NCBI GenBank assembly: GCA_016218305.1
Contig: JACREJ010000058.1
Location: 1-64,000 of the forward strand
DNA length: 64,000 nucleotides
DNA from: Gemmatimonadota bacterium
GTDB taxonomy: Bacteria > Gemmatimonadota > Gemmatimonadetes > Gemmatimonadales > Gemmatimonadaceae
Direction: 5' to 3'
The notes under the pieces were generated by a model that made no database searches, was not told the origin of the DNA, and saw only the letters and a program-made list of their open reading frames with translations. This document shows, piece after piece, positions 2,533 through 31,296 of the stretch. Made by a program: the position numbers and the translations under genes. How positions within the stretch are numbered: the stretch's first letter is position 1; every line of letters starts with the position of its first letter.

Positions 2533-2536
2533 GACA

Positions 2537-2542: not shown

Positions 2543-2580
2543 GACGAGCCGGGGCGCCACCCGGAAACAGTCGCGCCCTC

Positions 2581-2610: not shown

Positions 2611-2624
2611 TTTGTAGTATCAGT

Positions 2625-3998: not shown

Positions 3999-4003
3999 AG
4001 GCG

Positions 4004-10191: not shown

Positions 10192-10194
10192 GCG

Positions 10195-11667: not shown

Positions 11668-13631
11668 CGCGCCACCGTCACGGTCACGCGACTTCCCGCC
11701 GCCGCCACCGCGCCGGCCGCCGGCCACTGCGCCGCGTGCTCGCCGCGCGCAAATGCCACGCGGAAGCCGGCGCGATGCAGCATGCGCGCCGCGGCGCGGC
11801 GCGAGAGCCCCGTCACCTGCGGCACGACGCGTGCGCCGGCCACCACCGGCGACACCCGCACCGGCTGCCCCAGCGTCACTTCGTACGGCACGCTGCCGGC
11901 GCTCTCCGTCACGACGACCTCTTCGGCGACGTCGCGCACCGGCTCTTCGGGCGGCGGCGCCGCCGCGACGCGACGTGGCGAACTGGCCAGCCCGTCGCGG
12001 TCGAGGGCCGCGTCGCGCGCGGCGATGGCGGCCTCGAGCACCGTCTTCGACACCGGCGCCGCGGCCTTGCCGCCGTAGATGCTCTTTCGCGGACTGTCGA
12101 TCTTCACGAGGATGACGATCTGCGGCGCCTCGGCCGGAAACATCCCGACGAAGCTCGCCGTGTACTCACCCTTCACGTAGTGCTTGTTGCGCGCCACCTT
12201 GGCCGTGCCGGTCTTGCCCGCCACGTCGAACGTGGCCAGCGAGGTCCCCACCGCCGTGCCGCTGTCGAGCACGCCCTTGAGCAGGGTGCGCATCGTCCGC
12301 GCCGCGTCGGGTGACATCAGCCGTCGCACGACGCGGCGCTCGTGGCGGTAGACCACGGTGCCGTCCGGGGCGCGCACCTCGCGCACCAGCGCGGGCTGCA
12401 GCAGTTCACCGCCGTTGGCGATGGCCGCGTACGCCGCCGCCAGCTGCAGGGGCGTGACCAGGATCTCGTAGCCCATCGCCAGTGAGGCGGGCGTCTTGCT
12501 GGACCACTGCGCGGGAAGCGACAGGCGTCCCGGCGACTCGGACGGATAGGTGGTGCCGGTCGGCGCGCCGAAGCCGGCGTCGCGCAGCAGTTCGTACTGC
12601 TCCCGCGGCGTCATGCGCTGCGCGAACTGGATGATGCCGATGTTGGACGAATGCCGGATCACGTCGGCGAGGGAGAACGCCGCGCCCTTGTGGTCATCCT
12701 CGATGATGCGGCCGTCCAGGTTCCACTTGCCGCCATGGGTGTTCACGACTTCATCCACCCGCGCACGGCCGTGGTCGAGGAGCCAGGTCGCGATGAACGG
12801 CTTGAGCGTGGAGCCCGGTTCATACGGCTCGGTGAGCGCCGTGGCCGCCGTGGAGCGCGGGTCGGCGCGGCGGCTCGCCATCGCGCGCACCTCGCCCGTC
12901 TGCGCGTCGAGGACGACGATGTCGCCGCCGGCCGCGTCCTGCGCCGTCACCGCGTCATTGAGGGCGCGCTCGGCGATATCCTGCAGGCCGGCGCTGATGG
13001 TAAGCGTCACGCTGTGCCCCGGTCGCGCGGCGGCGCCGTCTTCGGACGGCGACGCGAAGCGGCGTCCCTTGCTGTCGCGCAGCAGCGATTCGTGCCCTGC
13101 CCGCCCGCGGAGCAGCGCGTCGAGTGCGAGCTCGACGCCGTCCAGGGGGATACTGCCGTCGGCCGTGCGGCCAATGATGCGCCGCAGCCCCTCCGACGGC
13201 GGGGCGACGCGGTTGAGCACCGGCTCCGGATGCACGCCGCGCGTCGCCGTGATCAGGCCGACGTCCGTGGGAAGGAAGAGCCCGGGTACCTCCACCCACT
13301 TCAGCGTCGTATCGGTGGCGCGCGCCACCCACGACTCGGCGATGCCGGCGCGCCGCATCAGCGTGCCAAGCTGCGCGGGGTTGCGCACCTCGCGCGGCGC
13401 GATGCGCAGGCGCACCATCTCGCGGCTCTCCACCAGCACGGCGCCGCCGGCGTCGCGGATGGCGCCGCGCGGCGCAGGAAGCGGAGCGGCCGCCACCTGC
13501 TGATCGCGCGCGCGTGCGCTCCACTGCGCACCGTCGAGCAGCTGCACCTGCGCGGCGCGGACGATCACCGCCAGCGCGAAGAGCGCGAGGGCGGCGTGGA
13601 TCAGGCGCGGGCGGTTAGCGAACAGCGACAC
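11664..13631 (-). CDS. ftsI: Septal class B penicillin-binding protein FtsI, one PASTA domain
   Basis: This is the septal transpeptidase that crosslinks peptidoglycan in the periplasm with FtsW. The 655-residue protein has an N-terminal membrane anchor (about 9-28), a dimerisation/pedestal domain and a transpeptidase domain. Catalytic motifs are STLK (274-277, serine nucleophile), SSN (328-330) and KTGT (473-476). Residues about 585-655 form one PASTA repeat, uncommon outside Gram-positives. The GTG at 13631 is the best start because it sits directly before the anchor; it overlaps ftsL by 17 bases. No ATG is found before the anchor. Confidence 0.93.
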   Translation of the reverse strand: MSLFANRPRLIHAALALFALAVIVRAAQVQLLDGAQWSARARDQQVAAAPLPAPRGAIRDAGGAVLVESREMVRLRIAPREVRNPAQLGTLMRRAGIAESWVARATDTTLKWVEVPGLFLPTDVGLITATRGVHPEPVLNRVAPPSEGLRRIIGRTADGSIPLDGVELALDALLRGRAGHESLLRDSKGRRFASPSEDGAAARPGHSVTLTISAGLQDIAERALNDAVTAQDAAGGDIVVLDAQTGEVRAMASRRADPRSTAATALTEPYEPGSTLKPFIATWLLDHGRARVDEVVNTHGGKWNLDGRIIEDDHKGAAFSLADVIRHSSNIGIIQFAQRMTPREQYELLRDAGFGAPTGTTYPSESPGRLSLPAQWSSKTPASLAMGYEILVTPLQLAAAYAAIANGGELLQPALVREVRAPDGTVVYRHERRVVRRLMSPDAARTMRTLLKGVLDSGTAVGTSLATFDVAGKTGTAKVARNKHYVKGEYTASFVGMFPAEAPQIVILVKIDSPRKSIYGGKAAAPVSKTVLEAAIAARDAALDRDGLASSPRRVAAAPPPEEPVRDVAEEVVVTESAGSVPYEVTLGQPVRVSPVVAGARVVPQVTGLSRRAAARMLHRAGFRVAFARGEHAAQWPAAGAVAAAGSRVTVTVAR

Positions 13632-13902
13632 GGGGCGATCGCCGCAGCGTGACGACGAGACTGTCGCCGGGGACGCGCATGTGCAGCCGCTCCTCCGCCA
13701 CGCGCCCCAGGCGCTCCATGCTGATGGCGGTGCGGATGTCGCCGTCGAGCTTGGCGCGCTGCGCCGCCAGCGCGGTGCGCCGCGCCTCGAGATGCTCGAT
13801 GGCGCGCGCGCGCGACACGCCCAGGCTGCGGCGCCAGACGACGCCGGTGGCCAGCACGACGAAGCCGGCGAGTGCGAGGAAGACCACGGTGCGTCCGCGC
13901 AT
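13615..13902 (-). CDS. ftsL: FtsL-like divisome protein
   Basis: A 95-residue bitopic protein with a membrane segment at about 7-23 and a periplasmic helix rich in A, R, L and E (EARRTALAAQRAKLDGDI), predicted to form a coiled coil. In the divisome FtsL with FtsB and FtsQ activates FtsWI. Sequence is poorly conserved in this family, so the call rests mainly on size, topology and its place between rsmH and ftsI. It starts ATG one base after the rsmH stop. Confidence 0.85.
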   Translation of the reverse strand: MRGRTVVFLALAGFVVLATGVVWRRSLGVSRARAIEHLEARRTALAAQRAKLDGDIRTAISMERLGRVAEERLHMRVPGDSLVVTLRRSPRVAVR

Positions 13903-13903
13903 C

Positions 13904-14917
13904 TCAGTCCTCCCGCCGGAAGGCGCGCAGGTGCGCGCTGCGGGCGCGCACGTTGTGCGCCACCTCGGCGTCGGCCGCCGTGATCGGCTTGCGGGTGAGC
14001 AGGGTGCCCAGTGGGCGGCCTCGGCAGGTACACATGGGTTGCCTTGGTGGACAGACGCACGACGACGCCCACTCGCGGAAGGCCAGCTTCACGAGCCGGT
14101 CTTCCCCCGAGTGGTAGGCGATCACTGCGAGGACGCCCCGCGGGGCGAGACGGTCACGCAGGGTCGGCAGCGCACGCGCGAGGCCCGCGAGTTCGTCGTT
14201 CACCGCGATCCGGACGGCCTGAAAGAGCCGCGCAAAGTCGCCTGGTCCGCTGCGCGGCCCGAGCACGGCGCGAATGGCCCCCACCAGGTCGTCGCTGATG
14301 GCAAACGGGCGATGCTCGCGGCGGTGCACCACCTCCCGCGCCAGCCGCCCGCCCTTGGGCTCGTCGCCGTATTCCTTGAAGGCGCGCGTCAACTCGGCGA
14401 CGTCGGCGTGGTTGAGGAAGTCGGCGGCGGAATCCCAGCCGGACGCGCTGACGGCGGACCGTGGACCGCCGTCGGTTGGTCGATCTACCATCTGCCATCG
14501 ACCATCTACCGTCACTGTCACCGCGCTCGAATCCATCGCCCCGCCGAGCGGCGCCCCCTCCCGGAACGAGAACCCCCGCGCGTCATCGTCGATCTGGTGC
14601 GACGAGACGCCGAGGTCGAGCAGGATGGCGTCGAAGCGGGCATCCGGCGGCAGCAGCGCATCCGCGTCGGCGTAGTTGCCGCTCACGGCACGGAAACGCC
14701 CCGCCTCAATGGCCGGTTGCAGGCGGCGCGATGCCTCGGAGATCGCAGCCGGGTCGCGATCGATGCCCGTGACATCCATGCCGGCTTCGAGCAGCGCCGC
14801 GCTGTGCCCCCCGCCCCCCAGCGTGCCGTCGAGCGCGCGCGAAGCGCCGGCGAAGAGGGCGAGGATCTCCTCGACCAGCACCGGCGCATGGTACGCAGTG
14901 TCAAAGCGCGTGGTCAC
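13904..14917 (-). CDS. rsmH: 16S rRNA (cytosine-1402-N4)-methyltransferase RsmH with in-frame insertion
   Basis: RsmH (MraW) methylates C1402 of 16S rRNA in the decoding centre. The product is 337 residues, against roughly 300-310 in most relatives. Motifs are HAPVLVEEIL, the SAM loop GTLGGGGHS (31-39), LLDLGVSSHQID, FQAVRIAVNDEL and IAYHSGEDRLVK. The excess is residues about 129-162, inserted between APLGGAMD and SAADFLN, where relatives have a short loop (family pattern PLDMRMD...TAADLLN). The inserted DNA is repeat-like. It starts GTG at 14917 with a TATAGT box at 14941-14946 and leads the dcw operon; mraZ is missing. Confidence 0.94.
   Translation of the reverse strand: MTTRFDTAYHAPVLVEEILALFAGASRALDGTLGGGGHSAALLEAGMDVTGIDRDPAAISEASRRLQPAIEAGRFRAVSGNYADADALLPPDARFDAILLDLGVSSHQIDDDARGFSFREGAPLGGAMDSSAVTVTVDGRWQMVDRPTDGGPRSAVSASGWDSAADFLNHADVAELTRAFKEYGDEPKGGRLAREVVHRREHRPFAISDDLVGAIRAVLGPRSGPGDFARLFQAVRIAVNDELAGLARALPTLRDRLAPRGVLAVIAYHSGEDRLVKLAFREWASSCVCPPRQPMCTCRGRPLGTLLTRKPITAADAEVAHNVRARSAHLRAFRRED
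14432..14533. repeat. Repeat-like in-frame insertion inside rsmH
   Basis: This segment contains a hairpin (GACGGCGG... with ...CCGCCGTC, arms around 14450-14472) followed by iterated GATCTACCATC / GACCATCTACC units up to 14511. Such low-complexity units look like intergenic repeats, yet here they are translated in frame as about 34 extra residues in a loop of RsmH. Family-length comparison and base composition support insertion. Exact ends are uncertain. Confidence 0.6.
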
Positions 14918-18267: not shown

Positions 18268-19151
18268 CACGGAATGCGCGGCGGCTCCCCGCCCGCCTCC
18301 ACGGTCGCCAGCACCTCGGCGCAGCGCTTGCCCCATGGATTGAACTTGTTGGTGGCGTGCCCGGTGCTCCACGCCGCCTTCGCCTCGTCGAACTCGCCGT
18401 TGTACCAGTGCGCGCGGCCGAGTTCGTAGTACGCTTCGATGAGGTTGGGCCCCAGCGTCAGCGTCTTCTTGAAGAAGCTCTGCGCGTCCTCGAACATCTC
18501 GCGCTCGAGGTAGACGAGCCCGAGGTAGAAATGGGCGTACAGCATCGCCTTCTTGTCGTTGTCGAGGCGAATCGCCTTCGACAGGTGCTCAATGGCTTCG
18601 CCGAAGATGCGCTTCTTCAGGCAGATGTAGCCGACATTGATCCGGGCCAGCGCGTTGGCCGGCTGGCGCATCAGCACCTTCTGGAAGTTCATCAGCGCTT
18701 CGTCGTACTTCTCCTGCAGCATCTGCGCCCAGCCGAGGAGCGCTTCGCTCTGCGGGTCGTTGGGCGACAGCTCCAGCGCGCGCTTGAGCGCCGTCTCGGC
18801 GGCCTCGTAGTCGCCGAGCGAGAGCCGGCTCCACCCTTTCTCGATGAACGTCGAGGCGCCAATGTGATCGGCGTGCACCACCGGCTTCTCGCCGCTGAAC
18901 TCCGGCGCATTGGTGGCCGCGTCGGCCTGCTGCGCCTTGAACTTGTCCACCAGGCGCTTGACGTCGTCCTTCAATGCGCTCATCCCGGTGAGCGCGGCCG
19001 TGAGGTCCGCGACCCCCTGCTCCAGCGTACGGAACAGCGCGATGATCTCCTGGCGTGTTGCGTCCCGATCGCCCGCGGCGAGCCCGGTGTCGAGCTTCTG
19101 CTCGATCGCAGCGAACTGCGCGGCCAGCGTGTCCAGCGGTGGAACCGTCAC
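18267..19151 (-). CDS. Cytoplasmic TPR protein
   Basis: A 294-residue protein with a helical N-terminal third (LAAQFAAIEQKLDTGLAAG, a likely coiled coil) and about four TPR units from residue 105 on (KGWSRLSLGDYEAAETALK, LLGWAQMLQEKYDEALMNF, NVGYICLKKRIFGEAIEHL, YELGRAHWYNGEFDEAKAA). No signal peptide is seen. It starts GTG at 19151, overlapping the preceding stop as GTGA. It is presumably a protein-interaction scaffold for the operon; the partner is unknown. Confidence 0.8.
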   Translation of the reverse strand: MTVPPLDTLAAQFAAIEQKLDTGLAAGDRDATRQEIIALFRTLEQGVADLTAALTGMSALKDDVKRLVDKFKAQQADAATNAPEFSGEKPVVHADHIGASTFIEKGWSRLSLGDYEAAETALKRALELSPNDPQSEALLGWAQMLQEKYDEALMNFQKVLMRQPANALARINVGYICLKKRIFGEAIEHLSKAIRLDNDKKAMLYAHFYLGLVYLEREMFEDAQSFFKKTLTLGPNLIEAYYELGRAHWYNGEFDEAKAAWSTGHATNKFNPWGKRCAEVLATVEAGGEPPRIP

Positions 19152-20770
19152 GACTCCCTCCGCACCATCTCGAGGTTCGCCTGCAGGTGCGAGTCCGTGG
19201 GATCCAGCGCGAGCGCCTGCTCCCAGCACCGGATGGCCTCGTCCCTTTCATCCCGCTTGAGGCGGATATGGCCGAGCTTGCGCCAGACATCGGGCCCAAG
19301 CCGTTCGTTGAACTTCACTGCGCGCAGATACGACTCGAGCGCCTCGTCGAGCTGGCCGCCGCGATAGTAGAGGTCACCGAGATTCTTGTGGAGCTGCGGA
19401 AGTCCGGCGTCCTCATGGAGGCCGTTCTCGACCGCCGCCTTGGCCTCGTCGGCGCGGCCCTTCTCGGCCAGCGCAACCGCGAGGTTGTTGAAGAGCGTGG
19501 ACGAATGCGGATGCGTCTGGGTGCCTTCGGTGAGCAGTGAGATCGCCTTGTCGAGGTGGCCGCCCAGTGCCGCCGCGAGCGCGGCATAGTGGAACCAGAC
19601 CGCCGCCGGGGGACGCTGGCCGAAGAGCGGCCGCGCCTCCATGAGCGCCGCGTCCGCCTCGGTCGCGTTGCCGGCGCGCAGCTGCAGCACACCGATCCCC
19701 ATCAGGACCCGCGGGTCCTGTCCGCCGCCGCGCTTCATGGCCTCGTCGAGTGCGTGGCGCGCCTCGTCCACGCGTCCCAACTGCTCCAGCGAGAGCGCGA
19801 GGTTGTGGAACACCGCCGACTTCGCGAGGCGCGAAGCCGCGACGGCTTGGAACTCCGCGACCGCGTCGGCATACCTGCCCTGGCGCACGTGCACGAGCCC
19901 GAGGTAGAACCGCGCCGCGCTGTCCGTGGCGCGCAGGTCGAGCACGCGGCGGAACTCCCGCACGCTCTCATCGAGCATCCCCGCCTTGTAGAACGCGAGG
20001 CCGAGGTTCCGGTGCTCTTCCACGCGCTCGTCCGGCGCGCCGGGCTCGGTGGTCTTGGCGGTCTTGCCCACGCGGTGCAGGAAGCCGGCCGTCACCAGCC
20101 CATACAGCGCCTTGCCGACCTCGAACTCCACCATGCCGGTCTCGTCCACGAGCGCCGCCACGTCGCGCCGCCCGTCGATGAGCGGCACCACCGTCTCCTG
20201 CTCGGGGGTCAGCGCCACGCCGCTGTCGGCGAGCCGCTTGCGGTCGATCTCGAAGACGATGTCAAAGCCCGGGATCTTCTTCTCGATCAGGCTCCATTCG
20301 TCCACCCGGCGCGCCCCCTCGAGGAGGAGCGATTCCGGGTTGATGGAGACGACGAAGTCCTGCTCCTCGGGGCGGATGTCGGCCTCGAAGTTGAACGTGC
20401 CCTGCGTCCACGTGAACAGGAAGTAGACGGCTTCCTCGATCTGCAGGCGGATCTGCTTGTGCAGGTCGTCGCGCGAGATGATGCGCCGGTCCACCAGGAT
20501 CTCGCCGAGGCGCTTGTCCCGCTCGTGCGCCTGGGCGGCGATGCCCTCCTCCAGCTGCGCCTGGGTGATCACGCCGCTCTTCATCAGGATGTCGCCGAGG
20601 CGGTCGCGGCGATTCACGATGGCGGCGTACGAAATCTTGCCCTTGTCGAAGTAGATCGAGCCGAAGTTATTGCGATGGGTCACCGACAGGCAGCCGGTCT
20701 TCTTGCCCATCGAGAGCAGCTGCAGGACGTCGGGAAGGCTCGCTTCCTTGAGGCTGCCGCGGATGGCCAT
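19148..20770 (-). CDS. DUF4388 (PATAN)-TPR protein
   Basis: A 540-residue protein starting MAIRGSLKEASLPDVLQLLS, the DUF4388/PATAN opening (PatA N-terminal domain; KTGCLSV and IYFDKGKISYA follow). Residues about 60-230 contain the linked helical segment GDILMKSGVITQAQLEE and a winged-helix-like stretch (VPLIDGRRDVAALVDET) of the type that accompanies DUF4388. Residues about 250-540 form TPR repeats. DUF4388 is known to co-occur with response regulators and MglA/roadblock genes. A second DUF4388 gene lies at 24988-25953. It starts ATG one base into the end of the AAA+ gene. Confidence 0.85.
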   Translation of the reverse strand: MAIRGSLKEASLPDVLQLLSMGKKTGCLSVTHRNNFGSIYFDKGKISYAAIVNRRDRLGDILMKSGVITQAQLEEGIAAQAHERDKRLGEILVDRRIISRDDLHKQIRLQIEEAVYFLFTWTQGTFNFEADIRPEEQDFVVSINPESLLLEGARRVDEWSLIEKKIPGFDIVFEIDRKRLADSGVALTPEQETVVPLIDGRRDVAALVDETGMVEFEVGKALYGLVTAGFLHRVGKTAKTTEPGAPDERVEEHRNLGLAFYKAGMLDESVREFRRVLDLRATDSAARFYLGLVHVRQGRYADAVAEFQAVAASRLAKSAVFHNLALSLEQLGRVDEARHALDEAMKRGGGQDPRVLMGIGVLQLRAGNATEADAALMEARPLFGQRPPAAVWFHYAALAAALGGHLDKAISLLTEGTQTHPHSSTLFNNLAVALAEKGRADEAKAAVENGLHEDAGLPQLHKNLGDLYYRGGQLDEALESYLRAVKFNERLGPDVWRKLGHIRLKRDERDEAIRCWEQALALDPTDSHLQANLEMVRRES

Positions 20771-22620
20771 CAGCGCATCTCCTCAACGAGCCGCGCCCCG
20801 GCGTCGGGCCAATCGAACACGACGCGCTCGTGGTCGAGGAACGGATCGCCGGCGGGGACGGCCGCCGAGATGCGCGGCGGCCGCGGCTCCACGGCGGGCC
20901 CGCCCAGCTCGGCGCGCACCAAGTCGACGGTGAGCGGCTTGCCGTACAGGTCCGCAGCGGCGCCCAGCCGTGTGACGACGCCGATGATCTCGCGTACGCT
21001 CTGCACCGGATGCTCGCCAAGCAGGCGCAGGACGTCCTCGTCGGCGGCGCGTCCCGCCTCGGCGAGGAATCGCGCGAACAGCCGTTCGCGCAGGACGCGG
21101 TCGGGCGACTGGATGGGGACGACCAGGCCGCCCTCGAATCGCGAGCGCAGGCGCGCCTCGAGATCGGTGATGTCGGCCGGCACGCGATCGCTGGTCAGCA
21201 CCACCTGCTTGCCGCCCTCGATCATCGCGTTGAAGATGCCGAAGAACTCCTCCTGCGTGCGCTCCTTGCCGCCGAGGAACTGGATGTCGTCGACGATCAG
21301 GGCGGAGGCGGAGCGATACCGCGCGCGCCAGCGGTCCACGTTGCCGGTGTGCACCGCTTCGATGAGCTCGTCCACGAGCTGCTGCGAGTTGACATACGCC
21401 ACCGCGCCCGCCGCCCCGCCCTGCTGCATCAGCGCATTGCCGATGGCGTTGGCGAGGTGCGTCTTGCCCACGCCGCTCGGGCCGTATAGTACGAGCGGGT
21501 TGTAGCGGCGCGCCGGCTCTGCGACCACCGCATCGGCGGCATGCACGGCGAGCTGGTTCGAGGCGCCCACCTCGAACGCGTCGCGCGCGAACGCGGGACT
21601 CGGTCCCTTGGTCGGCAGCGCTCCCGTCAGCGCGTGCTCCACCAGGTCCTCGGCCTCCGGCATCCGCTCGGGATCGCGGAAAACCGCGTGGCCGACGAGC
21701 GAGGGATCCACCTGCCGCGCCTGCCGCTCGAGGTTGCGCAGGTGCTCCACCGCCGCGGTGAACGTCGCGGTGAGGCCCGCCACGTCAGGGGCGCGCGGCA
21801 GGTCCAGGGCGCGCTCCAGCACGGCGGTGCGGTAGCCCTCCGCCTGCCAGAAGGCGATGGCTTCGCGCAGCCGTCCGCGCCACGACTCGACCTGCTGCTG
21901 CACCACCACCTGCACGTCGCTGAGGAAGCTGTCGAACTCGCCGGCATCGAGCTGCGGCGCCGGCCGGTGCTGCCGGGAGGCGATGGGGGCGAGCGCCGCG
22001 CGCAGCTCGTCGATGTCACGGTACTCGCGCGCCGCGAGGTCTTGCACCACATCGGGCGTCAGCTCCAGTCCGGCCTCGGTGGCCATGCGCTGCAGGATCA
22101 CGGCGCGCGTCTCGTAGTCAGGGGGCGCGACGTCCACCAACAGGCCCTGCGACAGCGTCTGCGACAGCGCGTCTTCCACCTCGGCGATCCCCGACGGCAG
22201 CCGGTCGGCGACGAGCACCACCTGCGTGTTGTGCTCGACGAGCGCGTCAATGACGCGCGCCAGCGCCAGCTGCGCGGACGGATGCCCCTCGAGCGCGTGC
22301 ACGTTGTCGAGCAGGAGCATGCCGGCATGCGTGTACGAACCCAGGAAGGCGTCAACGGATCCGGCGGCGACGGACGCCGCATGTCCGGCTACGAAGTGCG
22401 CGCCGTCCTCGCGGCGCACCTCGAGTTCGGGCCACAGCGCCGTGGCAAGGTCGGCCACCGCGCCGAGCAGGTGCGACTTGCCGAGGCCGTGCGCCCCGTA
22501 GATGAACAGCGGGTTGTAGGTCGAGCCCGGCGATTCCGCGACGGCGCGCGCGGCCGCCGCCGCGAGGCGGTTGTTGGCCCCGACGACGAAGCGGTCGAAC
22601 GTTTCGCGCGGCTCGGTCAC
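20770..22620 (-). CDS. Tandem DnaA-type AAA+ ATPase without DNA-binding domain
   Basis: A 616-residue protein with two DnaA-like AAA+ modules. Module 2 (about 348-555) is canonical: YNPLVLYGPSGVGKTH (Walker A, 380-387), LIVDDIQFL (Walker B, 441-449), TQEEFFGIFNAM, LTSD sensor 1, RLRSRFEGG (490-498, arginine finger) and VREIIG (542-547, sensor 2). Module 1 (about 9-215) keeps Walker A GAHGLGKS (42-49) but has LLDN instead of DD, no arginine-finger RSRF (it reads LSQTLSQGL) and Asp in place of the sensor-2 arginine. Helices and a WQAEGY stretch link them. Domain IV of DnaA is missing, so it is not the replication initiator. GTG start, four bases after mglA. Confidence 0.88.
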   Translation of the reverse strand: MTEPRETFDRFVVGANNRLAAAAARAVAESPGSTYNPLFIYGAHGLGKSHLLGAVADLATALWPELEVRREDGAHFVAGHAASVAAGSVDAFLGSYTHAGMLLLDNVHALEGHPSAQLALARVIDALVEHNTQVVLVADRLPSGIAEVEDALSQTLSQGLLVDVAPPDYETRAVILQRMATEAGLELTPDVVQDLAAREYRDIDELRAALAPIASRQHRPAPQLDAGEFDSFLSDVQVVVQQQVESWRGRLREAIAFWQAEGYRTAVLERALDLPRAPDVAGLTATFTAAVEHLRNLERQARQVDPSLVGHAVFRDPERMPEAEDLVEHALTGALPTKGPSPAFARDAFEVGASNQLAVHAADAVVAEPARRYNPLVLYGPSGVGKTHLANAIGNALMQQGGAAGAVAYVNSQQLVDELIEAVHTGNVDRWRARYRSASALIVDDIQFLGGKERTQEEFFGIFNAMIEGGKQVVLTSDRVPADITDLEARLRSRFEGGLVVPIQSPDRVLRERLFARFLAEAGRAADEDVLRLLGEHPVQSVREIIGVVTRLGAAADLYGKPLTVDLVRAELGGPAVEPRPPRISAAVPAGDPFLDHERVVFDWPDAGARLVEEMR

Positions 22621-22624: not shown

Positions 22625-23221
22625 TCAGCCCTTCGATGCGCCGAGGCGGCGCAGCACGAGTTCGGAAATGGAGCGCAGCGTCTCGAAGACGCCGGCGCCG
22701 TGCAGCGCGTCCGCCTCGAACGACGGCACGCCGCGGAAGTTGAGCGCGTCCTCCAGCGTCGGCAGCGGCAGCAGCAGGTCCGGCGGGAGGTCCCGCTTGT
22801 TGTACTGCAGCACCAGCGGCACGCTGCGCGCGTCCACGCCGTGCTCGGCGAGGTTGGCATGCAGGTCCTGCAGGCTCTCGATGTTCTCCTCGAGCTGGCG
22901 CGACTGGCTGTCGGCCACGAAGACAACGCCGTCGGCGCCCTGCAGCACGAGCCGGCGCGTGGTCTGGTAGTACACCTGGCCAGGAACCGTGTAGAGCTGG
23001 AAGCGCGTGGTGAAGCCGGAGATGGTCCCAAGGTCGAGCGGGAGGAAGTCGAAGAAGAGCGTACGATCGGTCTGCGTCGCCAGCGACACCATCTGCCCTT
23101 TCCGGTCGGAAGGGACCTGGCTGTAAATGTAATGCAGGTTCGTCGTCTTTCCCGACCGTCCCGGCCCGTAGTAGACGATCTTGCACGTGATCTCGCGCGT
23201 GGCGTAGTTGACCAGACTCAT
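22625..23221 (-). CDS. mglA: MglA-like small Ras-like GTPase
   Basis: A 198-residue GTPase of the MglA family, the switch that sets front-rear polarity in myxobacteria. Motifs are YYGPGRSGKTTNLHYIY (P-loop GPGRSGKT, 19-26), TVPGQVYYQTTRRLVLQGADG (switch 2/PGQ at 80-82) and QYNKRD (guanine specificity, 141-144). As in other MglA proteins a threonine-rich FFDFLPLDLGTISGF stretch replaces the usual switch 1. It sits between the MglB-like gene (30 bp upstream) and the tandem AAA+ gene. No lipidation motif is seen; it is cytoplasmic. Confidence 0.93.
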   Translation of the reverse strand: MSLVNYATREITCKIVYYGPGRSGKTTNLHYIYSQVPSDRKGQMVSLATQTDRTLFFDFLPLDLGTISGFTTRFQLYTVPGQVYYQTTRRLVLQGADGVVFVADSQSRQLEENIESLQDLHANLAEHGVDARSVPLVLQYNKRDLPPDLLLPLPTLEDALNFRGVPSFEADALHGAGVFETLRSISELVLRRLGASKG

Positions 23222-23251: not shown

Positions 23252-23725
23252 CTACGCCCGCCCGAACAACTGGGCCAGGTTGCGGTTGAGGTCGCGCTCG
23301 AAATTCTCCGCCAGGGCAGGCGGCCCTGCAGTGGGCACGGCTGGGGCGGACGCCGCCACCCGGGCCCGGAATTCCTCGAGAAACAGCTGCACCAGGCCCA
23401 GCGAACTCTCGCGGTCGAACACGGCGAGCAGCAAGAGGGTGCCGGACTGCGTGGCGATGGCCCCCAGGAAAATCTGCCGATCGCGCCCCATGTAGTGAAG
23501 CGCGGAGAACGGCGTGCCCTCGAGCTGCCGCCCGAGCTCCGCAGACGTGGCGTGGATGGCCGAGGCGAGCGCGCAGGCCGTCATGACGTCCACCGAGCGG
23601 GCGAAGCCGTACTGCCCCAGCACCTGCCCGCTGGGATGCATCAGCACGGCAATCTCGACGCGCGCGTCGTCCACGAACTGCTTGAGCGGCGTCTCCACCC
23701 AGCCGGCGGCCACGGAGAGCTTCAT
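23252..23725 (-). CDS. Roadblock/LC7 protein, MglB-like
   Basis: A 157-residue Roadblock/LC7 domain protein. The pattern is typical: an N-terminal helix, VEIAVLMHPSGQVLGQYGF, CALASAIHATSAELGRQL and a final LLLLAVFDRESSLGLVQLFL strand-helix. A proline/alanine linker and a C-terminal helix of about 20 residues follow. Its position directly before mglA makes it the probable MglB, the GTPase-activating partner of MglA. The start ATG at 23725 overlaps the previous stop by 4 bases. Confidence 0.85.
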   Translation of the reverse strand: MKLSVAAGWVETPLKQFVDDARVEIAVLMHPSGQVLGQYGFARSVDVMTACALASAIHATSAELGRQLEGTPFSALHYMGRDRQIFLGAIATQSGTLLLLAVFDRESSLGLVQLFLEEFRARVAASAPAVPTAGPPALAENFERDLNRNLAQLFGRA

Positions 23726-24069
23726 GGCAGACGCTCCGCGGCCCGCAACAGTTCCACGCGCAGGAGGCCGACGTTGACCCGCGACTCGCAGACCACCACG
23801 AGCACCAGGTCCTGCCCGCCGGCGGTGCAGACCCTGCCCTGTTCCGCCGTGAGCTCGAGAAAGCTCGTCGCACCGAACCCGGCGGCGGCGGCCGATCGCC
23901 GGGCCTTGCGATAAAGCGACGCGGCCAGCGCGGCAAAGGCGTCGCCGTTCACGCCGATCTGCAGCGTGGACTCCACGATGATCCCGTCGTCGAGGCCCAC
24001 GACCATCGCCCCCAGCACGCCGCGGTGCCGGATGAGCGACTCGGTGAGCAGCGCGAACGGGGCGCTCAT
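23722..24069 (-). CDS. Second roadblock/LC7 protein
   Basis: A 115-residue protein with one Roadblock/LC7-like domain: SLIRHRGVLGAMVVGLDDGIIV, AALAASLYRKARRSAAAAG and LVLVVVCESRVNVGLLRVELLRAAE. It has no extension beyond the domain. It lies between a TPR-roadblock gene and the MglB-like gene with 4-base overlaps on both sides. It could pair with the MglB-like protein or compete with it for MglA; that is inference from position. Confidence 0.8.
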   Translation of the reverse strand: MSAPFALLTESLIRHRGVLGAMVVGLDDGIIVESTLQIGVNGDAFAALAASLYRKARRSAAAAGFGATSFLELTAEQGRVCTAGGQDLVLVVVCESRVNVGLLRVELLRAAERLP

Positions 24070-24998
24070 CGCGCGCCCTCCGCCCACTCGGCGGCGCGCT
24101 CCACCGCGCGGTCGAGCACACGCCGCACGAAACCGAGCGGCGTGGGGCGCGCCGCCGCCACGAGCGCCACGCCGTCCCGGCTGGGCGCCATCGCCACCGA
24201 GGCCGCTTCGGTCTCGAAGATGATCTGGCGCCAGGCGCCGAGTCCGAGGTGGCGCATGGCGCGCCCCGCTTCGTCGCTCACGCCCGAGAGTTGCGCCCCG
24301 ATGATGGCAGCGAGATCGCGCCCGTCGGCGGAGACATAGCGTCCGGCGAGCACGAGGCCGTCCCCGTCGAGAAGGAGCGCCGCGCTGCGTGTTCCCTCCA
24401 GCAGGTCGTCGAAGAGCGCGCCGGCGTCCGCTTCCGGGCGCGGCACCTCCATCGGCAGTCCGATGGTCGGGCGCGCGGTGCGCAGGCTGTCCTCCGCCAC
24501 GGCCGCGCGCGCCGCGTCGCCGGCGCCGTAGTCCGCTGAGACCGCCTGCCGCGAGACCTGCATCGTGGCGCGATCGGTCGCGCTGTCGCGCTCCGTGAGC
24601 GCCGCCTGCACGGTCTGCAGCGCCGCGGCCAGCGACCCGTCCGCAGGACTGGCGGCGAGCGCCGCGCTCAGGTGGGCCGCGGCCTCCTCGAGGCGCCCCA
24701 GCTGGAAGCAGATGAAGCCGAGCCCCTTCCGCGCGCCGGGATCCCCCGGTGCCAGTCGCAGCACCGTTTCCCACTCGACGATCGCACGCTCGAGCTCGCC
24801 GCGGTCGACGGAGACGCGCGCCACGAGGTCGTGCGCATCGGCTCGCTCCGGATGCCGTTCCGCGCCGCGGAGCGCCACGCGCAGCGCGACGTCGAGCTCG
24901 CCGCGCCGCCGCAGCGCCTCGCCGAGCGCGACGAAGGCCAGGCTCGCCGGATCGGCCGCCAGCGCCTCGCTGAGCGCGCGAATGTCGTCAGTTGCCAC
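24066..24998 (-). CDS. TPR-roadblock fusion protein
   Basis: A 310-residue protein: residues about 1-125 are TPR repeats (LRRRGELDVALRVALRGAERHPER, RGELERAIVEWETVLRLAPGD, LGRLEEAAAHLSAAL). An acidic linker follows. Residues about 195-310 are a Roadblock/LC7 domain (GTRSAALLLDGDGLVLAGRYV, ASVAMAPSRDGVALVAAARPTPLGFVRRVLDRA). The GTG at 24998 overlaps the DUF4388 gene by 11 bases and is the only sensible start. It is the third roadblock domain in a row before mglA. Confidence 0.8.
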   Translation of the reverse strand: MATDDIRALSEALAADPASLAFVALGEALRRRGELDVALRVALRGAERHPERADAHDLVARVSVDRGELERAIVEWETVLRLAPGDPGARKGLGFICFQLGRLEEAAAHLSAALAASPADGSLAAALQTVQAALTERDSATDRATMQVSRQAVSADYGAGDAARAAVAEDSLRTARPTIGLPMEVPRPEADAGALFDDLLEGTRSAALLLDGDGLVLAGRYVSADGRDLAAIIGAQLSGVSDEAGRAMRHLGLGAWRQIIFETEAASVAMAPSRDGVALVAAARPTPLGFVRRVLDRAVERAAEWAEGAR

Positions 24999-25953
24999 GG
25001 AGCACCTCCAGCGCCCGCCGCAACTGCTCGACGGCCTCGACGCCATCGCGCACGGCCGGCGCGTCCCGGTCCGACGCATGCGTCGCCAGATACTGCGTCC
25101 AGACACGCAGGGCGTCGTCGAGCCGCCCGCCGGCAGCGGCGGCCAATCCCTGCAGCACCAGCGCGCGGGCCGCCGCCTGTCGTTCGACCTCTTCCTCCGA
25201 GCGGAGCTCCGACAGGCGCGAGCGGCGCTCCGCCGGACGCAGCGAGACGACACCGGTGCTCAGCAGGCCGTACACGATCTTGGCGACGTCGAATTCGCTG
25301 CGCGCCAGTTCCACCGCGATGCGGCGGAGGTCGCGCTGGCCGTCGATCATCGTCAGCACTTCCCATTCACCCGGCAGCAGGTCGAGCTGGCCCGCATGGT
25401 CGTCGCCGGCCTCCGCGAACTGCGGCACCACGGCGAGGTTGGGCACACGGTCGGCGATGCGCGACCACTCATCGATGCGCCGTGCCGCCTCCATCAGCAC
25501 CGACTCGGTCGAGACGGCGATCGATGGATTGTCCGGGAACGCCGACGCGCTCGCCTCCTCGAAGCGGAAGTGCCCCTCGCGCCAGCTCATCAGCTCGAAG
25601 ACCACGGCCTCCGCCTGGCGGCGGACAGACTGCTCCACGTCGCGCGTCGAGACGGCGCCCAGCGCGATCAGAATCTCGCCGATGCGCCGCCGGTCGCCCT
25701 GCTCCGTCTGCAGTTCGCGCGCTGCGGCGAGCTCCGTCTCCGTGATCTTGCCGGCCTTCAGCAGCATCTCGCCGAACGGATACGGATTGCTGCGAATGGA
25801 GGCGTACGCGATGCGCCCGGCGTGGAACGCCACCACGCCCTCGTTGTCGCGCAGCTCCGACACCACGCGCAGCACGCCCGTCTTCCGGCTGAGGTCGAGG
25901 AGCTGGAAGACGTCATGGATGCCGAGTTCGCGGAGTGGGCCTTCGATGGCCAT
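24988..25953 (-). CDS. DUF4388 (PATAN) protein
   Basis: A 321-residue protein starting MAIEGPLRELGIHDVFQLLDL, closely paralogous in its opening to the DUF4388-TPR gene at 19148. DUF4388 spans about 1-110 (KTGVLRV, VVAFHAGRIAYASI, GEMLLKAGKITETELAAA). The associated region to about 240 has MIDGQRDLRRIAVEL and ends in a short helical tail. It probably senses or docks with a partner of the MglA system. It starts ATG at the end of the giant TPR gene with a one-base overlap. Confidence 0.82.
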   Translation of the reverse strand: MAIEGPLRELGIHDVFQLLDLSRKTGVLRVVSELRDNEGVVAFHAGRIAYASIRSNPYPFGEMLLKAGKITETELAAARELQTEQGDRRRIGEILIALGAVSTRDVEQSVRRQAEAVVFELMSWREGHFRFEEASASAFPDNPSIAVSTESVLMEAARRIDEWSRIADRVPNLAVVPQFAEAGDDHAGQLDLLPGEWEVLTMIDGQRDLRRIAVELARSEFDVAKIVYGLLSTGVVSLRPAERRSRLSELRSEEEVERQAAARALVLQGLAAAAGGRLDDALRVWTQYLATHASDRDAPAVRDGVEAVEQLRRALEVLRGN

Positions 25954-28664
25954 CAGCCCCCTCCCCCGGCGCGCCGGCCGAACACCTGCAGCAGGTCCTG
26001 CGCCGTGCGCATCTCGCGGCGGGCACGCCGCGCGTACTCACCCGCCGGCTCGAGGTCGATGACGCGCTGCCAGGCCGCGATCGCCTCCCGGAACCGCTTG
26101 TCGCCGGCGGCCAGCACGCCGTCGTAGAAGATGGCCCCGGCGTGCGTGGCGTCGAAGCGCAGCACCCGCGTGAACGCCGTGCGGGCATCGCCGGCGCGTC
26201 CCATCGTGAGCAGCGTTTCTCCGAGGGCGATGAGTGCCTCGAAGTTGTACGGGTCGCGCTGGAGCAGGTCGGCGAGCAGGTTCACCGCCTCCTGCGCGCG
26301 CCCCGTCACCCGTTTGAGGCTGGCCAGCTCGAGCGTCGCCTCCGCATACGTCGGCACCGTGTCGAGCGCCGTCACCAGCTCGCGCTCGGCCTCGTCCCAC
26401 GACGACTTGCGCACGAGCAGGCGGGCGAGCTCGAAGCGCACCGCCGCAAAATCACGGTCGAGCGACAACGCGTGGCGATAGGCCGCGATGGCCCCCTCGA
26501 GGTCGCCGACCGAGCGCGCGATGTTGCCGATCCAGCGCAGCACCTCGGCGCGCTGCGGGGCGAGGCGCCGCGCGAGGTCGAGCGCCTCGAGCGCGGCGGC
26601 CGGGTCGCCCGCCTCGAAGCGCGCCGACGCCGCGAGCATCAGCGCGTCCACGTCCTCGGGCGCCGCCTCCAGGATCTGCTCCGCGGCGAGGCGCGCCTCG
26701 GCGCCGCGGCTGAGCATCATCAGGGCCTGCGCCTCGCCGCGCAGCGCGCGCATGTGCCCCGGCCGCGCCTGGCGCGCGGCACGGAAACGCTCCAGCGCAT
26801 CGCCGTACGCGCCCTGTCGGTAGAGCACGTCACCGAACAGCGCGTAGCCGTCGGCCACGTCGGCGCCGCGCGCCATGGCACGGCTCGTCTCGGCCGTGGC
26901 CCGGTCGTACAGTCCCTTGGTGAGGTAGTCGGCCGCCATCGCGTACGGGTCCACCTCCATCACCACGGTCGGCGCGGGGGCCGGCGGCGGCGCGAGCTCC
27001 TTGAACAACGTGTCGAGGAGCGTCGGGTCGAAAGCGAATTGACCGACCTCGCCGCTCATCCGCTGTTCGCCGCCGAGATCCGGCACCACCGACAGGTCGG
27101 GATCCTCGTACTCGAGATCGATGGCGAGCGAGAACTTCTGCGGCACATAGTACGGGTCGAGCTCGAGCGCGCGACGCGTCTCGCGCAGCGCCCCGTCGAA
27201 GTCGCCAAGGTTCGACAGCGCGAAGCTCATGTTGTAGTGCGCCTCGGCGAAGTCGGGGCGCGTCTGGATGGCGCGCGCAAAGGCGTTGCGCGCGTCTTCG
27301 AACTTGCGGAGGTCGGCGAGCACGAGCCCGACGCCGTTCCACGCCACCGCATTGTCGCTCTCGGTGACCAGCACCTGGCGATAGGCCTCGAGCGCCAGCT
27401 GCGCGCGCTTGGCGCGCGAGAGCAGCAGCGCGAGGTTGAGCCGCGCCTTGGCGAAGCCCGGGTTGGCGGTGAGGGCCGCGCGGAACGCGCCGATGGCGGC
27501 GTCACGATCGCCGGCATGGAACAGCGCCACGCCAAGGTTGTTGGAGGCCAGCGCGTATCGTGGGTCCACCGCCAGCGCGCGCTGGTAGTCGGCGGCCGCC
27601 TCGGCATGCCGACCCTGCTGATGCAGCGCAACGCCGTGCTCGTTCCAGAGCTTCGGGCTGTCCTGGCGGTCGGCCAGCAGCTGGTCATAGATCGCGAGCG
27701 CCGCGGCCGGATCCTGCCGCAGCAGATGCACCTCGGCCGTGGCCTGGAGCACGAGCGGCCGGTCCTCACCGCGCTCGATCGCCATCGCATACTCGCGGAG
27801 CGCCTCGGCGAAGTATCCCTTCTGGCGGAACGCGAGGCCGAGGTTGTAGTGCGCGAGGCCGTCGCCCTCCGTCACCGTCATGCGCTGCAGCGCGCGCGTG
27901 CTGCGGGCGCTCCGCAGCGCCTCGTACGCGCCGGGATCGTACTTGTCGATCGCCAGGTTGGCCTGCGCGCGCGACAACGCCGGGTTGAGCTGCACGGCGC
28001 GCTTGCTCGCGGCGAGCGCATCGTCCGGCCGGCCCATGTCGCCGTAGATGAACCCGAGCAGGTAGTGCGCATCGGGATTCTCCGGATTCAGCTGGATGGC
28101 GTGCTGCAGCGAGACGAGTGCCTCCTCCGCGAGGCCCTGGTTGTAGAGCGTCTCCCCGAGATAGAACGCCACCACCGAACTGGTGGGATCCATCTCGAGC
28201 GCGCGCACGAACCAGCGCCGCGCATCGTCGAGCCGCCCGACGGCCTTCTCGGCCAGTCCGAGCTGCACGATGGCGCCGAGGTCCTGGTCGTCGTACCGCA
28301 GCAGCTCCTGAAACTCGCGGATCGCGTCCTCGCTCTCGCCAAGCTGCGCGTAGGCGCGCCCGAGCTCCCAGCGGGCATCGCGATCGTCGGCGCGCACCCG
28401 CAGCCGCTCTTTCAGCTCGGCAACGCGGCGGTCGTAGTAGCCCGAACTCGTGTACGCGATCTCGAGGTTCCGCTGCGCGACCTGCATCTGCGGGTCGAGC
28501 TCCAGCGCCTTCGTGAAGGCCTGCACGGCCTCCTCGGCGAGGCCCTTGTTGTGGAAGAGCACGCCGAGGTTGTTGTGCGCGCCCGCATCCGACGGATCGA
28601 TGCGGCGCGCGAGTGCCCGCAGGACGTCGCGGTCCCGGGAGGAGGTCAGCGACGGTCCGCTCAC
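25953..28664 (-). CDS. 903-residue TPR protein
   Basis: A 903-residue protein built almost wholly from TPR units (for example NNLGVLFHNKGLAEEAVQAF, WELGRAYAQLGESEDAIREF, YNLGLAFRQKGYFAEALREY, NNLGVALFHAGDRDAAIGAF). A break near 525-570 contains a proline/alanine-rich linker (ELAPPPAPAPTVVMEVD). I count over 20 units. There is no signal peptide or membrane segment. It is likely a large cytoplasmic scaffold joining the Che and Mgl parts of the operon; that role is inferred from position. It starts GTG at 28664, overlapping the cheC stop as GTGA. Confidence 0.85.
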   Translation of the reverse strand: MSGPSLTSSRDRDVLRALARRIDPSDAGAHNNLGVLFHNKGLAEEAVQAFTKALELDPQMQVAQRNLEIAYTSSGYYDRRVAELKERLRVRADDRDARWELGRAYAQLGESEDAIREFQELLRYDDQDLGAIVQLGLAEKAVGRLDDARRWFVRALEMDPTSSVVAFYLGETLYNQGLAEEALVSLQHAIQLNPENPDAHYLLGFIYGDMGRPDDALAASKRAVQLNPALSRAQANLAIDKYDPGAYEALRSARSTRALQRMTVTEGDGLAHYNLGLAFRQKGYFAEALREYAMAIERGEDRPLVLQATAEVHLLRQDPAAALAIYDQLLADRQDSPKLWNEHGVALHQQGRHAEAAADYQRALAVDPRYALASNNLGVALFHAGDRDAAIGAFRAALTANPGFAKARLNLALLLSRAKRAQLALEAYRQVLVTESDNAVAWNGVGLVLADLRKFEDARNAFARAIQTRPDFAEAHYNMSFALSNLGDFDGALRETRRALELDPYYVPQKFSLAIDLEYEDPDLSVVPDLGGEQRMSGEVGQFAFDPTLLDTLFKELAPPPAPAPTVVMEVDPYAMAADYLTKGLYDRATAETSRAMARGADVADGYALFGDVLYRQGAYGDALERFRAARQARPGHMRALRGEAQALMMLSRGAEARLAAEQILEAAPEDVDALMLAASARFEAGDPAAALEALDLARRLAPQRAEVLRWIGNIARSVGDLEGAIAAYRHALSLDRDFAAVRFELARLLVRKSSWDEAERELVTALDTVPTYAEATLELASLKRVTGRAQEAVNLLADLLQRDPYNFEALIALGETLLTMGRAGDARTAFTRVLRFDATHAGAIFYDGVLAAGDKRFREAIAAWQRVIDLEPAGEYARRARREMRTAQDLLQVFGRRAGGGG

Positions 28665-29281
28665 CCCAGCCGCACCGCGTGCAGGATATGGTCGAGCGAG
28701 TCGGCGTCCGGCAGCATGAAGTACAGGCCGCGCAGCGGCTCGTCGCGGTCCTTCAGGAAGAACTCGGTTTCCATGACGAACACCACCGACGCCGCGCTGC
28801 TCGACGCGCGCACCGTGTCGGCCAGCGCGGCGTGCGAGAGACCCACCGCCAGCTCCGGCGGGGTCGGCAGCAGCACCATGCCCATGAACTCGGCCAGCGC
28901 GTTCAGGTAGGCGGAGCTCAGGATGTTGCCGGCTTCCTGCACGGCCGACTGCTCGTACGCGCCCACTTCGGTAAACGTCCCCGCCGGCTGACGCGACATC
29001 AGCTCAGCGAGGCGCATGGCGCTCGTGTGCGAGAAGGTGAGGACGCTCAGTCCCTTGAGGTCGCCGACCATCTTGAGCAGCACCGCCGCCACCGGCTCCG
29101 TACTCGACGACAGCAGCACGGGCAGCTCCGCGACGCCCGACACGGCAAGGCGCGGCACGCTGATCATGATCGTCTCGTCCGTCATCTGCGACAGCGCGGT
29201 GGCGGCGTGCCCTGCCCCGATGTTGGCGACTTCGCGCAGGGCGTCGAGCTGGCGAGCGCTCAGGTTCCGGACATCGTCCAT
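28661..29281 (-). CDS. cheC: CheC-family phosphatase
   Basis: CheC dephosphorylates CheY-P. The 206-residue protein has both phosphatase motifs intact: DALREVAN (Asp13, Glu17, Asn20) and SAVQEAGN (Ser112, Glu116, Asn119), in the CheC/FliY/CheX arrangement. It lacks the FliN domain of FliY. Its presence between cheA and the TPR gene predicts active removal of phosphate from the CheY at 30818. Usual CheC partners (CheD) are not in the window. It starts 12 bp after cheA. Confidence 0.93.
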   Translation of the reverse strand: MDDVRNLSARQLDALREVANIGAGHAATALSQMTDETIMISVPRLAVSGVAELPVLLSSSTEPVAAVLLKMVGDLKGLSVLTFSHTSAMRLAELMSRQPAGTFTEVGAYEQSAVQEAGNILSSAYLNALAEFMGMVLLPTPPELAVGLSHAALADTVRASSSAASVVFVMETEFFLKDRDEPLRGLYFMLPDADSLDHILHAVRLG

Positions 29282-29293: not shown

Positions 29294-30790
29294 CTAGAAG
29301 CGCAGCGTGATGGTCGTGCCCCGACCGGGCACCGAGTCCAGCTCGACTGTCCCACCGAGATGCCGCACGCGGGACTGCACCGCATCCACGCCAACCCCGC
29401 GGCCGGAGTACCCGCTCACCGTCGGCGCCGTGGAGAAGCCCGGGCGCGCGATGAGGCGCAACAGCGTGGTCCCGTCGAGTTCGGTGATTTCCGGCCCAAC
29501 GAGGCCAAGTTCCCGCGCCCGCGCCAGCACGCGCTCGCGGTCGATGCCGCGCCCGTCGTCGTGCACGCGCACCAGCGCGGCCGATCCATCGCGCGCCACG
29601 CTGAGCACCACGCGCCCCGCACGCGGCTTCCCCAGCGCCTCGCGCACGTCGGGCGCCTCGATACCGTGGTCTACCGCGTTGCGCAGCAGGTGCATCACCG
29701 GCTCGCCGATCTCGTCGAGCAGGAAGCGGTCGATCTCGGTGTCCTTGCCGTCGACGGTGAACTCGATCTCCTTGCACAGCTGCCGCGCCGCGTCGCGCAC
29801 GAGGCGCGGAAAGCGGTCGAAGACATGCCAGGCCGGCACGCGGCGGCTCGCCATCACCTCGGCCTGCAGGTCGCTGATGAGCCGCGAGGTGCGCGTGATC
29901 TCCTCGTCGAGCGCCGCGTCGCCGCGGCCGGCGGCAAGCTGCAGCAGGCGGCCGCGCGCCGCGGCCAGCTCGGCGATGAGGTTCACCATCGCGTCGAGCC
30001 GCGCCAGCTCGATGCGCACGTAGCGCGTGCCGGAAGCGGCCGTCGAGGTGTCCTGCTCCGGCGTCAGGCGCATGGGCGCGCGCTGCCGCCCCCGTCCCGT
30101 GGACACCTCGACATGCTCGACGTCGCCTGTGGACGCGATCGCCGCCTCGATCTCCACCGCCGGCGTTGTGGAGACGAGGCGGAACGCAAAGGCCTGCGCG
30201 GATTCCGCCGCCTGCAGTTCCGCCGCCGGCGGCGAGACCGCCACGACGTCGCCCAGCGTGCGCGCCCGCTGCAGCGCCATGAACGCGCGCACGCCGGGGA
30301 AGACGGTGTCGGCCCGCTGCCGCACACGCACGAGGACGCCCGGCCCCTCATCGACCAGGTGCGCGGCGATGGCCGCCGCGCCGAGATCCGTGGACGCGTC
30401 GCGCGTTGCCGCCTCCACGCCCACGCGCCGCAGCTGCGCCAGCGCCGTGGCGAGCGCCGGCGGCTCGCTCGCCCCCTCCACCGCGCGCCCGATCCCCGCC
30501 TCCAGGGCGTCCGTCGCGGCGAAGAGCACGTCCATCAGCTCCGGGCTGATGCCCTGCGTCCCCGCTCGCACGCGGTCGAGCAGGCTCTCCAGCTCGTGGG
30601 CGAACGCAGCCACCGCGTCGTAGCCCATGGAGGCGCTCATCCCCTTGAGCGTGTGCACGGCGCGAAAGAGCACGTGCACGGGCTGGGTGTCCCCGGGCCT
30701 CGATTCGAGTTCGAGGAGCGCGCTGTTCATCTCCGAGAGCTGGACGCGGCTCTCGGATCGAAACAGGTCAGCGTAGCGGCGGGGGTCCAC
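29294..30790 (-). CDS. cheA: CheA-type histidine kinase lacking the P5 (CheW-binding) domain
   Basis: A 498-residue kinase. P1/Hpt (1-110) has the phosphorylated His46 in FRAVHTLKGMSA. About 140-235 resembles the P2 CheY-binding domain. P3 dimerisation lies at about 250-320. P4 ATPase has HLLRNAVDHGIE, DDGRGID and GRGVGVDAV. The chain stops at GRGTTITLRF, exactly where P4 ends and P5 would begin. With no P5 it cannot join a normal CheW/MCP array. No frameshift remnant of P5 follows: cheC begins 12 bp on. GTG start at 30790. Confidence 0.92.
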   Translation of the reverse strand: MDPRRYADLFRSESRVQLSEMNSALLELESRPGDTQPVHVLFRAVHTLKGMSASMGYDAVAAFAHELESLLDRVRAGTQGISPELMDVLFAATDALEAGIGRAVEGASEPPALATALAQLRRVGVEAATRDASTDLGAAAIAAHLVDEGPGVLVRVRQRADTVFPGVRAFMALQRARTLGDVVAVSPPAAELQAAESAQAFAFRLVSTTPAVEIEAAIASTGDVEHVEVSTGRGRQRAPMRLTPEQDTSTAASGTRYVRIELARLDAMVNLIAELAAARGRLLQLAAGRGDAALDEEITRTSRLISDLQAEVMASRRVPAWHVFDRFPRLVRDAARQLCKEIEFTVDGKDTEIDRFLLDEIGEPVMHLLRNAVDHGIEAPDVREALGKPRAGRVVLSVARDGSAALVRVHDDGRGIDRERVLARARELGLVGPEITELDGTTLLRLIARPGFSTAPTVSGYSGRGVGVDAVQSRVRHLGGTVELDSVPGRGTTITLRF

Positions 30791-30817: not shown

Positions 30818-31177
30818 TCAGCCGAGCACGCGTCGCACGGCCTCCAGCACGCGACTCGGCTGGAACGGCTTGACGACGAAGTCCTTGGCGCCGGCCTGGA
30901 TGGCCTCGACCACCAACGCCTGCTGGCCCATGGCCGAGCACATGAGCACGCGCGCGTTCGGGTCGAACGCCGTGATGGCGCGCACCGCGTCGATGCCGCC
31001 CATGTCGGGCATCACGATGTCCATCGTGACGATGTCGGGCTTGAGCTGCTTGTACTTCTCCACGGCCTGCGTCCCCGTGTCGGCCTCGCCCACCACCTCG
31101 AAGCCAGCGCGCCGGAGGATGTCACCCACCATCGTCCGCATGAAGATCGCGTCGTCACAAATGAGCACCGTCGGCAC
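30818..31177 (-). CDS. cheY: CheY-type single-domain response regulator
   Basis: A 119-residue receiver domain with acidic pocket Asp8/Asp9, phosphoacceptor Asp53 in VTMDIVMPDMGG, Ser81 in MCSAMGQQ and Lys103 in VVKPF. It is closest to Gram-positive/Thermotoga-type CheY (PTVLICDDAIFMRTM). I chose the GTG at 31177; further upstream frame is unlike the family. It heads the 13-gene operon, and a TATAGA box at 31309-31314 (inside the end of the upstream gene) is a possible -10. Confidence 0.93.
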   Translation of the reverse strand: MPTVLICDDAIFMRTMVGDILRRAGFEVVGEADTGTQAVEKYKQLKPDIVTMDIVMPDMGGIDAVRAITAFDPNARVLMCSAMGQQALVVEAIQAGAKDFVVKPFQPSRVLEAVRRVLG

Positions 31178-31296
31178 TGAAGACCCCCGCTGCGAGAAGA
31201 CGACCAGCCATTGCCGTGCGAGCGCCCATAGAGCCTGAGCGGGCAGGCCCACCGGCGCCTACCCGCTTCGAACTGCCCTAGCGTCTCGCCGTGCGT

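Follow-up and report, generated by a model that had tools for sequence, protein, structure and literature searches.

What does a protein assembled from two DnaA-type ATPase modules do when it lacks a DNA-binding domain and is encoded beside signalling genes? The question is raised by a 64,000-nucleotide stretch from a Gemmatimonadota bacterium (contig JACREJ010000058.1, positions 1 to 64,000; hereafter the window), in which a single open reading frame, 20770-22620(-), runs for 616 codons from a GTG start codon. The established roles of DnaA-type ATPases lie in replication and its control. An initial interpretation of the letters and reading frames (the sequence-only reading) described the product as two DnaA AAA+ modules fused in one protein, linked genetically to the small GTPase MglA and repurposed outside replication. 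We refer to this protein as tDnaA.

Two Bac_DnaA (PF00308) matches lie in the one tDnaA frame, at 22132-22611 (132.7 bits) and 21118-21591 (178 bits), which bears out the fusion, and the whole-protein match (E = 4e-91) far exceeds chance. Comparison of the modules with DnaA domain III by phmmer gave E values of about 1e-48. In the AlphaFold2 model each module folds confidently as an AAA+ domain and the linker between the two is helical (mean predicted local distance difference score 87.5); the predicted template modelling score (pTM) is 0.56, so the relative placement of the modules is loosely defined. The top Foldseek matches of the model were DnaA domain III structures (8btg and 8bv3), with a template modelling (TM) score of 0.92 to 8bv3. 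Bac_DnaA_C (PF08299), the helix-turn-helix of DnaA domain IV, was found neither in the protein nor in the draft genome, so both the missing DNA-binding domain and the helical linker free of a domain IV helix-turn-helix were correctly anticipated. The linker itself returned no family from Pfam and no solved relative from the PDB. Against the DnaA model TIGR00362 the two modules together score 421 bits (cut-off 343.9), and tDnaA genes can therefore be misnamed dnaA, a warning for annotation. A literature search for tandem DnaA AAA+ proteins, Gemmatimonadota and DUF4388, covering few subscription journals, found no such protein described or characterised; the family is apparently undescribed so far.

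In order to place the modules, we built trees containing both of them and DnaA from many phyla, with and without Hda and DnaC; ordinary DnaA genes recovered by a scan of genome contigs served as outgroups and negative controls. Both modules branch with DnaA, module 1 included, which indicates that both derive from it. The module 1 sequences form one clade (support 100/100), as do the module 2 sequences (100/97), and the two are sister clades in the best tree (98/75 with Hda and DnaC, 95/84 without). The simplest reading of these trees is one tandem duplication before the class diversified. The approximately unbiased test left groupings of module 1 with Gemmatimonadota DnaA (p 0.28) and of module 2 with Gemmatimonadota DnaA (p 0.30) possible, and a single duplication is thus favoured over two independent captures of DnaA rather than proven.

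A family profile detected tDnaA in 88 of the 160 Gemmatimonadota genomes sampled. It coexists with canonical DnaA in relatives, and several genus mates carry both (full-length DnaA, E about 1e-73). Coexistence with a full DnaA and a position within a signalling cluster support the view that a DnaA-derived ATPase has been put to use outside replication. The association with MglA held. MglA adjoins tDnaA in most families (in the window, 4 nucleotides separate the MglA stop from the tDnaA start) and co-occurs with it; the constant partner, however, is a gene for a DUF4388-tetratricopeptide repeat (TPR) protein, whose overlap with the tDnaA stop codon had gone unnoticed. This partner is present in every genome tested that has tDnaA in any form, and at 124 loci the junction between the two genes is -1 nucleotide in most and within a few nucleotides in nearly all. 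Among genomes of families f7, f4 and f6, 27 have tDnaA and MglA, none has tDnaA alone, 10 have MglA alone and 37 have neither (Fisher p 6e-12, uncorrected for kinship and with nine tDnaA-negative genomes scored only by a less sensitive single-protein query). The same association is seen within genus g79, where some species have both genes and others neither. Family f7 carries its MglA elsewhere in the genome; in one f7 genome it lies apart from tDnaA between recR and pgsA/cinA-like genes (L267:7247-7825). Many f1 genomes have a second MglA beside the cluster copy. PilT (TIGR01420) was matched in every tDnaA genome tested (below cut-off in G081) and also in most genomes without tDnaA, a breadth that speaks against an exclusive pilus link.

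We next compared the nucleotide-binding motifs of the two modules, counting conservation over 106 two-module proteins. The residue numbers previously assigned to these motifs proved correct. Module 1 of the window keeps its P-loop (K48, S49), as had been reported, and has lost the arginine finger (A151 and T155 at the finger positions) and the sensor-2 arginine (D204), again as reported. The reported loss of its Walker B acid pair was overstated: 'LLLDN' retains D105, and the replacement is confined to the second acid (D106N). The finger and sensor-2 losses are genus-wide (8/8 sequences). Across the family, K48 and D105 are present in every protein; Asp occupies position 106 in 103 of them, Glu in one and Asn in two (the window species and one sister), and the finger is present in 95/106, the 11 rows without it amounting to 4 changes on the tree. 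Within the window genus, dN/dS is 0.11-0.28 for module 1 and 0.09-0.20 for module 2, indicating purifying selection on module 1 and ruling out a decaying pseudo-domain; long change on the stem followed by constraint argues that module 1 is not junk.

Module 2 of the window has all the DnaA motifs attributed to it (P-loop G380 to K386 and T387, D444 and D445, R490 and R494 in 'RLRSRF', sensor 2 R543). Elsewhere it is frequently altered. Lys386 has been lost in 25 proteins, the second Walker B acid in 28 (11 changes on the tree) and sensor 2 in 50 (9 changes). In all 23 species of family f7 the P-loop and Walker B of module 2 are scrambled while R490, R494 and D478 are invariant, and a modelled f7 member has a module 2 without a lid. 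From these alignments, module 1 is the conserved nucleotide site across the class and module 2 the eroding one. The earlier prediction that module 1 binds but poorly hydrolyses ATP while module 2 is active therefore stands for binding, which is probable, and fails as a general description: an inert module 1 beside an active module 2 is a quirk of the window genus.

Some members of the family have shed AAA+ modules altogether. Single-module forms occur in families f8 and f10, genus g17 and genome G149; in the last, module loss is clear because several genus mates have two modules. The tDnaA of genome G024 consists only of linker and tail. In nine genomes (G014, G084, G152, G191, G016, G193, G212, G093 and G098) the syntenic place directly upstream of the DUF4388-TPR gene is occupied by a mini-protein of ~60-105 amino acids (aa) reduced to two elements, EFxxFLxD...VE from linker motif 1 and WPxxxxRxIEE from the C-terminal tail. 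Across the family, W604 and E598 of the tail are near-invariant. We searched for these minis with motif profiles built from two-module proteins only. Matches ranged from E 5e-6 to 0.05 for motif 1 and from 2e-7 to 0.1 for the tail; the G016 tail fell under the reporting limit of the tail-only profile and was found by the full-length profile. In 1.36 Mb of control DNA nothing rose above noise except two genuine tDnaA genes. Such minis lie between the signalling genes and DUF4388-TPR at L254:6881-7081, L242:8923-9144 and L247:9570-9806, and have probably been missed by annotation pipelines. Since the modules can be lost with motif 1 and the tail kept, tDnaA is probably an adaptor.

In DnaA, the arginine finger of one protomer contacts the ATP of the next, head to tail (PMC5742627). 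In light of that contact, the joint retention of the module 1 pocket and the module 2 finger is best read as one composite ATP site. The sequence-only reading had module 2 acting on a separate neighbour; conservation points instead to Arg494 completing the ATP site of module 1. With moderate confidence, we propose that tDnaA, carrying a DnaA-derived composite ATP switch, is an adaptor of an MglA/Che/TPR polarity module, and that this polarity module probably controls type IV pili or surface movement. The core of tDnaA would be linker motif 1 and the C-terminal tail, with the co-translated DUF4388-TPR protein and possibly MglA as docking partners, and the duplicated DnaA domain III would form an ATP switch on that core. 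ATP would sit in module 1, whose site would be completed by the module 2 arginine finger of the same or the next molecule. ATP would then set an open/closed or oligomeric state and hence the timing with which the tail engages its partner. Because module 1 of the window genus has lost its finger and its sensor 2, and two species lack its catalytic acid as well, it should be a long-lived ATP-bound site; module 2 itself may continue to bind ATP or to hydrolyse it. As for the output, SgmX, a TPR protein, mediates the action of MglA-GTP on type IV pili in Myxococcus (PMC7519303), and by analogy that of tDnaA is probably pili or polarity. More tentatively, and as a nearly even prospect, we suggest that DnaA domain III was duplicated onto a two-motif MglA/chemosensory/TPR adaptor to give, outside replication, a composite switch whose one module senses the nucleotide bound by the other; this switch later degenerated lineage by lineage and was discarded several times, leaving an adaptor of ~60 residues.

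Several observations weigh against the composite switch and its proposed output. The mutual orientation of the modules is not fixed by the AlphaFold2 model. The single-module forms named above keep the module 1 P-loop with no module 2 finger, and where the finger persists it could be kept for the fold or for contact with a partner. Genomes G093 and G098 keep the pair of tDnaA mini and DUF4388-TPR though the cluster MglA is gone. Finally, PilT occurs in many genomes lacking tDnaA, so the link to pili is weak.

Repeated erosion and loss show that some lineages can dispense with the modules, as would be expected if they were a passive scaffold or oligomerisation device with no nucleotide-dependent switching and with motifs that merely reflect inherited constraint. 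We consider this unlikely, as the invariance of Lys48 and Asp105 of module 1 would then be unexpected, as would the persistence of R490 and R494 where the module 2 P-loop is destroyed. It is rather improbable that tDnaA instead forms a DnaA-like spiral in which module 2 binds single-stranded DNA or RNA. The single-strand-binding residue Arg245 of DnaA has its equivalent in module 2 of 101/106 proteins, f7 included; however, module 1 mostly has Glu at that position, the Val211 equivalent varies, and the absent domain IV, the signalling-gene neighbours and the forms without any AAA+ module all speak against it. 

An Hda-like regulator, in which the module 2 finger would inactivate cellular ATP-DnaA and tie replication to the signalling cluster, is improbable. 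Hda is itself a DnaA-related AAA+ protein (PMC5742627), the finger of the DnaA-type module 2 is intact, and tDnaA coexists with canonical DnaA. Yet tDnaA has no N-terminal clamp motif (five scattered, chance-like matches in the family), scores 162.7 bits against the Hda equivalog TIGR03420 (cut-off 194.8) and is absent from many DnaA-bearing genomes, its presence following MglA and DUF4388-TPR instead; nine relatives keep the gene without either AAA+ module. The analogy with Hda drawn in the sequence-only reading is thus unsupported. Lastly, that tDnaA replaces DnaA in the window genome is scarcely credible and was rejected: the draft has no PF00308 match beyond the two tDnaA modules and no PF08299, but at 2.0 Mb (91.7% estimated completeness), against mostly 3.0-3.8 Mb in genus mates, it most likely lacks the contig with dnaA, several genus mates carry a full DnaA as well as tDnaA, and tDnaA has no DNA-binding domain.

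Among known systems, DnaA domain III (PDB 8bv3, 8btg, 2z4r) is closest in module sequence and fold, and intact modules share its Walker A and B motifs, box VII finger and sensor 2. In contrast to DnaA, tDnaA has two modules per chain, no domains I and IV, a linker without a known family, a conserved tail and a different gene neighbourhood, and it is not the sole initiator, since relatives carry a separate full DnaA. Hda/HdaA is likewise a DnaA-related AAA+ protein without domain IV, but has only one module and an N-terminal clamp site, whereas tDnaA is tandem. The MglA-SgmX system of Myxococcus also combines a small GTPase, a TPR effector and chemosensory input (PMC7519303); the partner in our case is DUF4388-TPR, and the portion of the MglA-SgmX literature covered describes no DnaA-type AAA+ protein. 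Two AAA+ modules with divided roles are found in p97/Cdc48 and Rix7, which gave weak full-length Foldseek matches; tDnaA belongs to another AAA+ clade, with a TM score of only about 0.3, and no substrate-threading features were found in it, none having been sought. In the tDnaA family, much of a phylum has taken a DnaA-type ATPase, doubled it and linked it to a system of Ras-like GTPase, chemosensory and TPR proteins. The family forms a natural series, from two active modules through one active plus one finger-only module and a single module to none, which dissects the AAA+ features that an adaptor requires and opens the composite-site hypothesis to direct test.

Table 1. Features of the tDnaA locus, in window coordinates.
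Feature	Position	Strand	Evidence or remark
TPR protein, 320 aa	18267..19229	(-)	synteny
DUF4388 + TPR protein, universal neighbour	19148..20770	(-)	ATG overlaps tDnaA stop (TGATG)
Tandem DnaA-type AAA+ protein (tDnaA), 616 aa	20770..22620	(-)	single open reading frame; homologues class-wide
C-terminal tail motif xxxEKvVWxWPxxxxRlIEExR, residues 594-616	20773..20841	(-)	kept in mini-proteins
AAA+ module 2, residues 344-560, canonical in window	20941..21591	(-)	PF00308 178 bits; module 2 clade 100/97
Module 2 box VII Arg490 and arginine finger Arg494	21139..21153	(-)	kept in 105/106 and 103/106
Module 2 P-loop, residues 380-387	21460..21483	(-)	Lys lost in 25/106 homologues
Helical linker, residues 214-343	21592..21981	(-)	AlphaFold2 helices
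Linker motif 1, EFxxFLsDvxxxVxxxVExW, residues 226-249	21874..21945	(-)	retained in homologues without both AAA+ modules
AAA+ module 1, residues 5-213	21982..22608	(-)	PF00308 132.7 bits; module 1 clade 100/100
Module 1 box VII/arginine-finger positions A151, T155, lost	22156..22170	(-)	alignment
Module 1 Walker B D105-N106, N in place of catalytic acid	22303..22308	(-)	alignment
Module 1 P-loop, residues 42-49	22474..22497	(-)	K48 present in 106/106 two-module homologues
MglA-like small GTPase	22625..23221	(-)	Arf and Gtr1_RagA matches; conserved neighbour; co-occurrence
TPR/roadblock-type proteins	23252..25253	(-)	Robl_LC7 confirmed for 24066-25253 only; synteny
Second DUF4388 protein	24988..25953	(-)	
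TPR protein, 903 aa	25953..28664	(-)	
CheC-like phosphatase	28661..29281	(-)	PF04509
CheA-like kinase: Hpt, P2, dimerisation, HATPase	29294..30790	(-)	domain matches
CheY-like receiver	30818..31252	(-)	

On the minus strand, the cluster (Table 1) reads CheY, CheA, CheC, the 903-aa TPR protein, DUF4388, TPR/roadblock, MglA, tDnaA, DUF4388-TPR and TPR. The DUF4388 proteins at 19148-20770 and 24988-25953 exceed the NCBIfam cut-off of 38 for an MshE-type cyclic diguanylate (c-di-GMP) motif, with 47.2 and 40.9 bits, respectively. In some genomes with AAA+-less minis, DUF4388-TPR seems to lack this MshE-related part. The CheA of the cluster (29294-30790) ends at its ATPase domain, with no CheW domain seen in it; CheA frames in related families run to about 650-700 aa. 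Most relatives have a receiver-domain gene separating DUF4388-TPR from the 320-aa TPR gene; the window and some genus mates lack it. Downstream on the same strand, at 560-14917, the window carries genes of division and cell-wall type (FtsA-, FtsQ-, mur- and RsmH-like, by eye), and RsmH adjoins the signalling cluster in several relatives.

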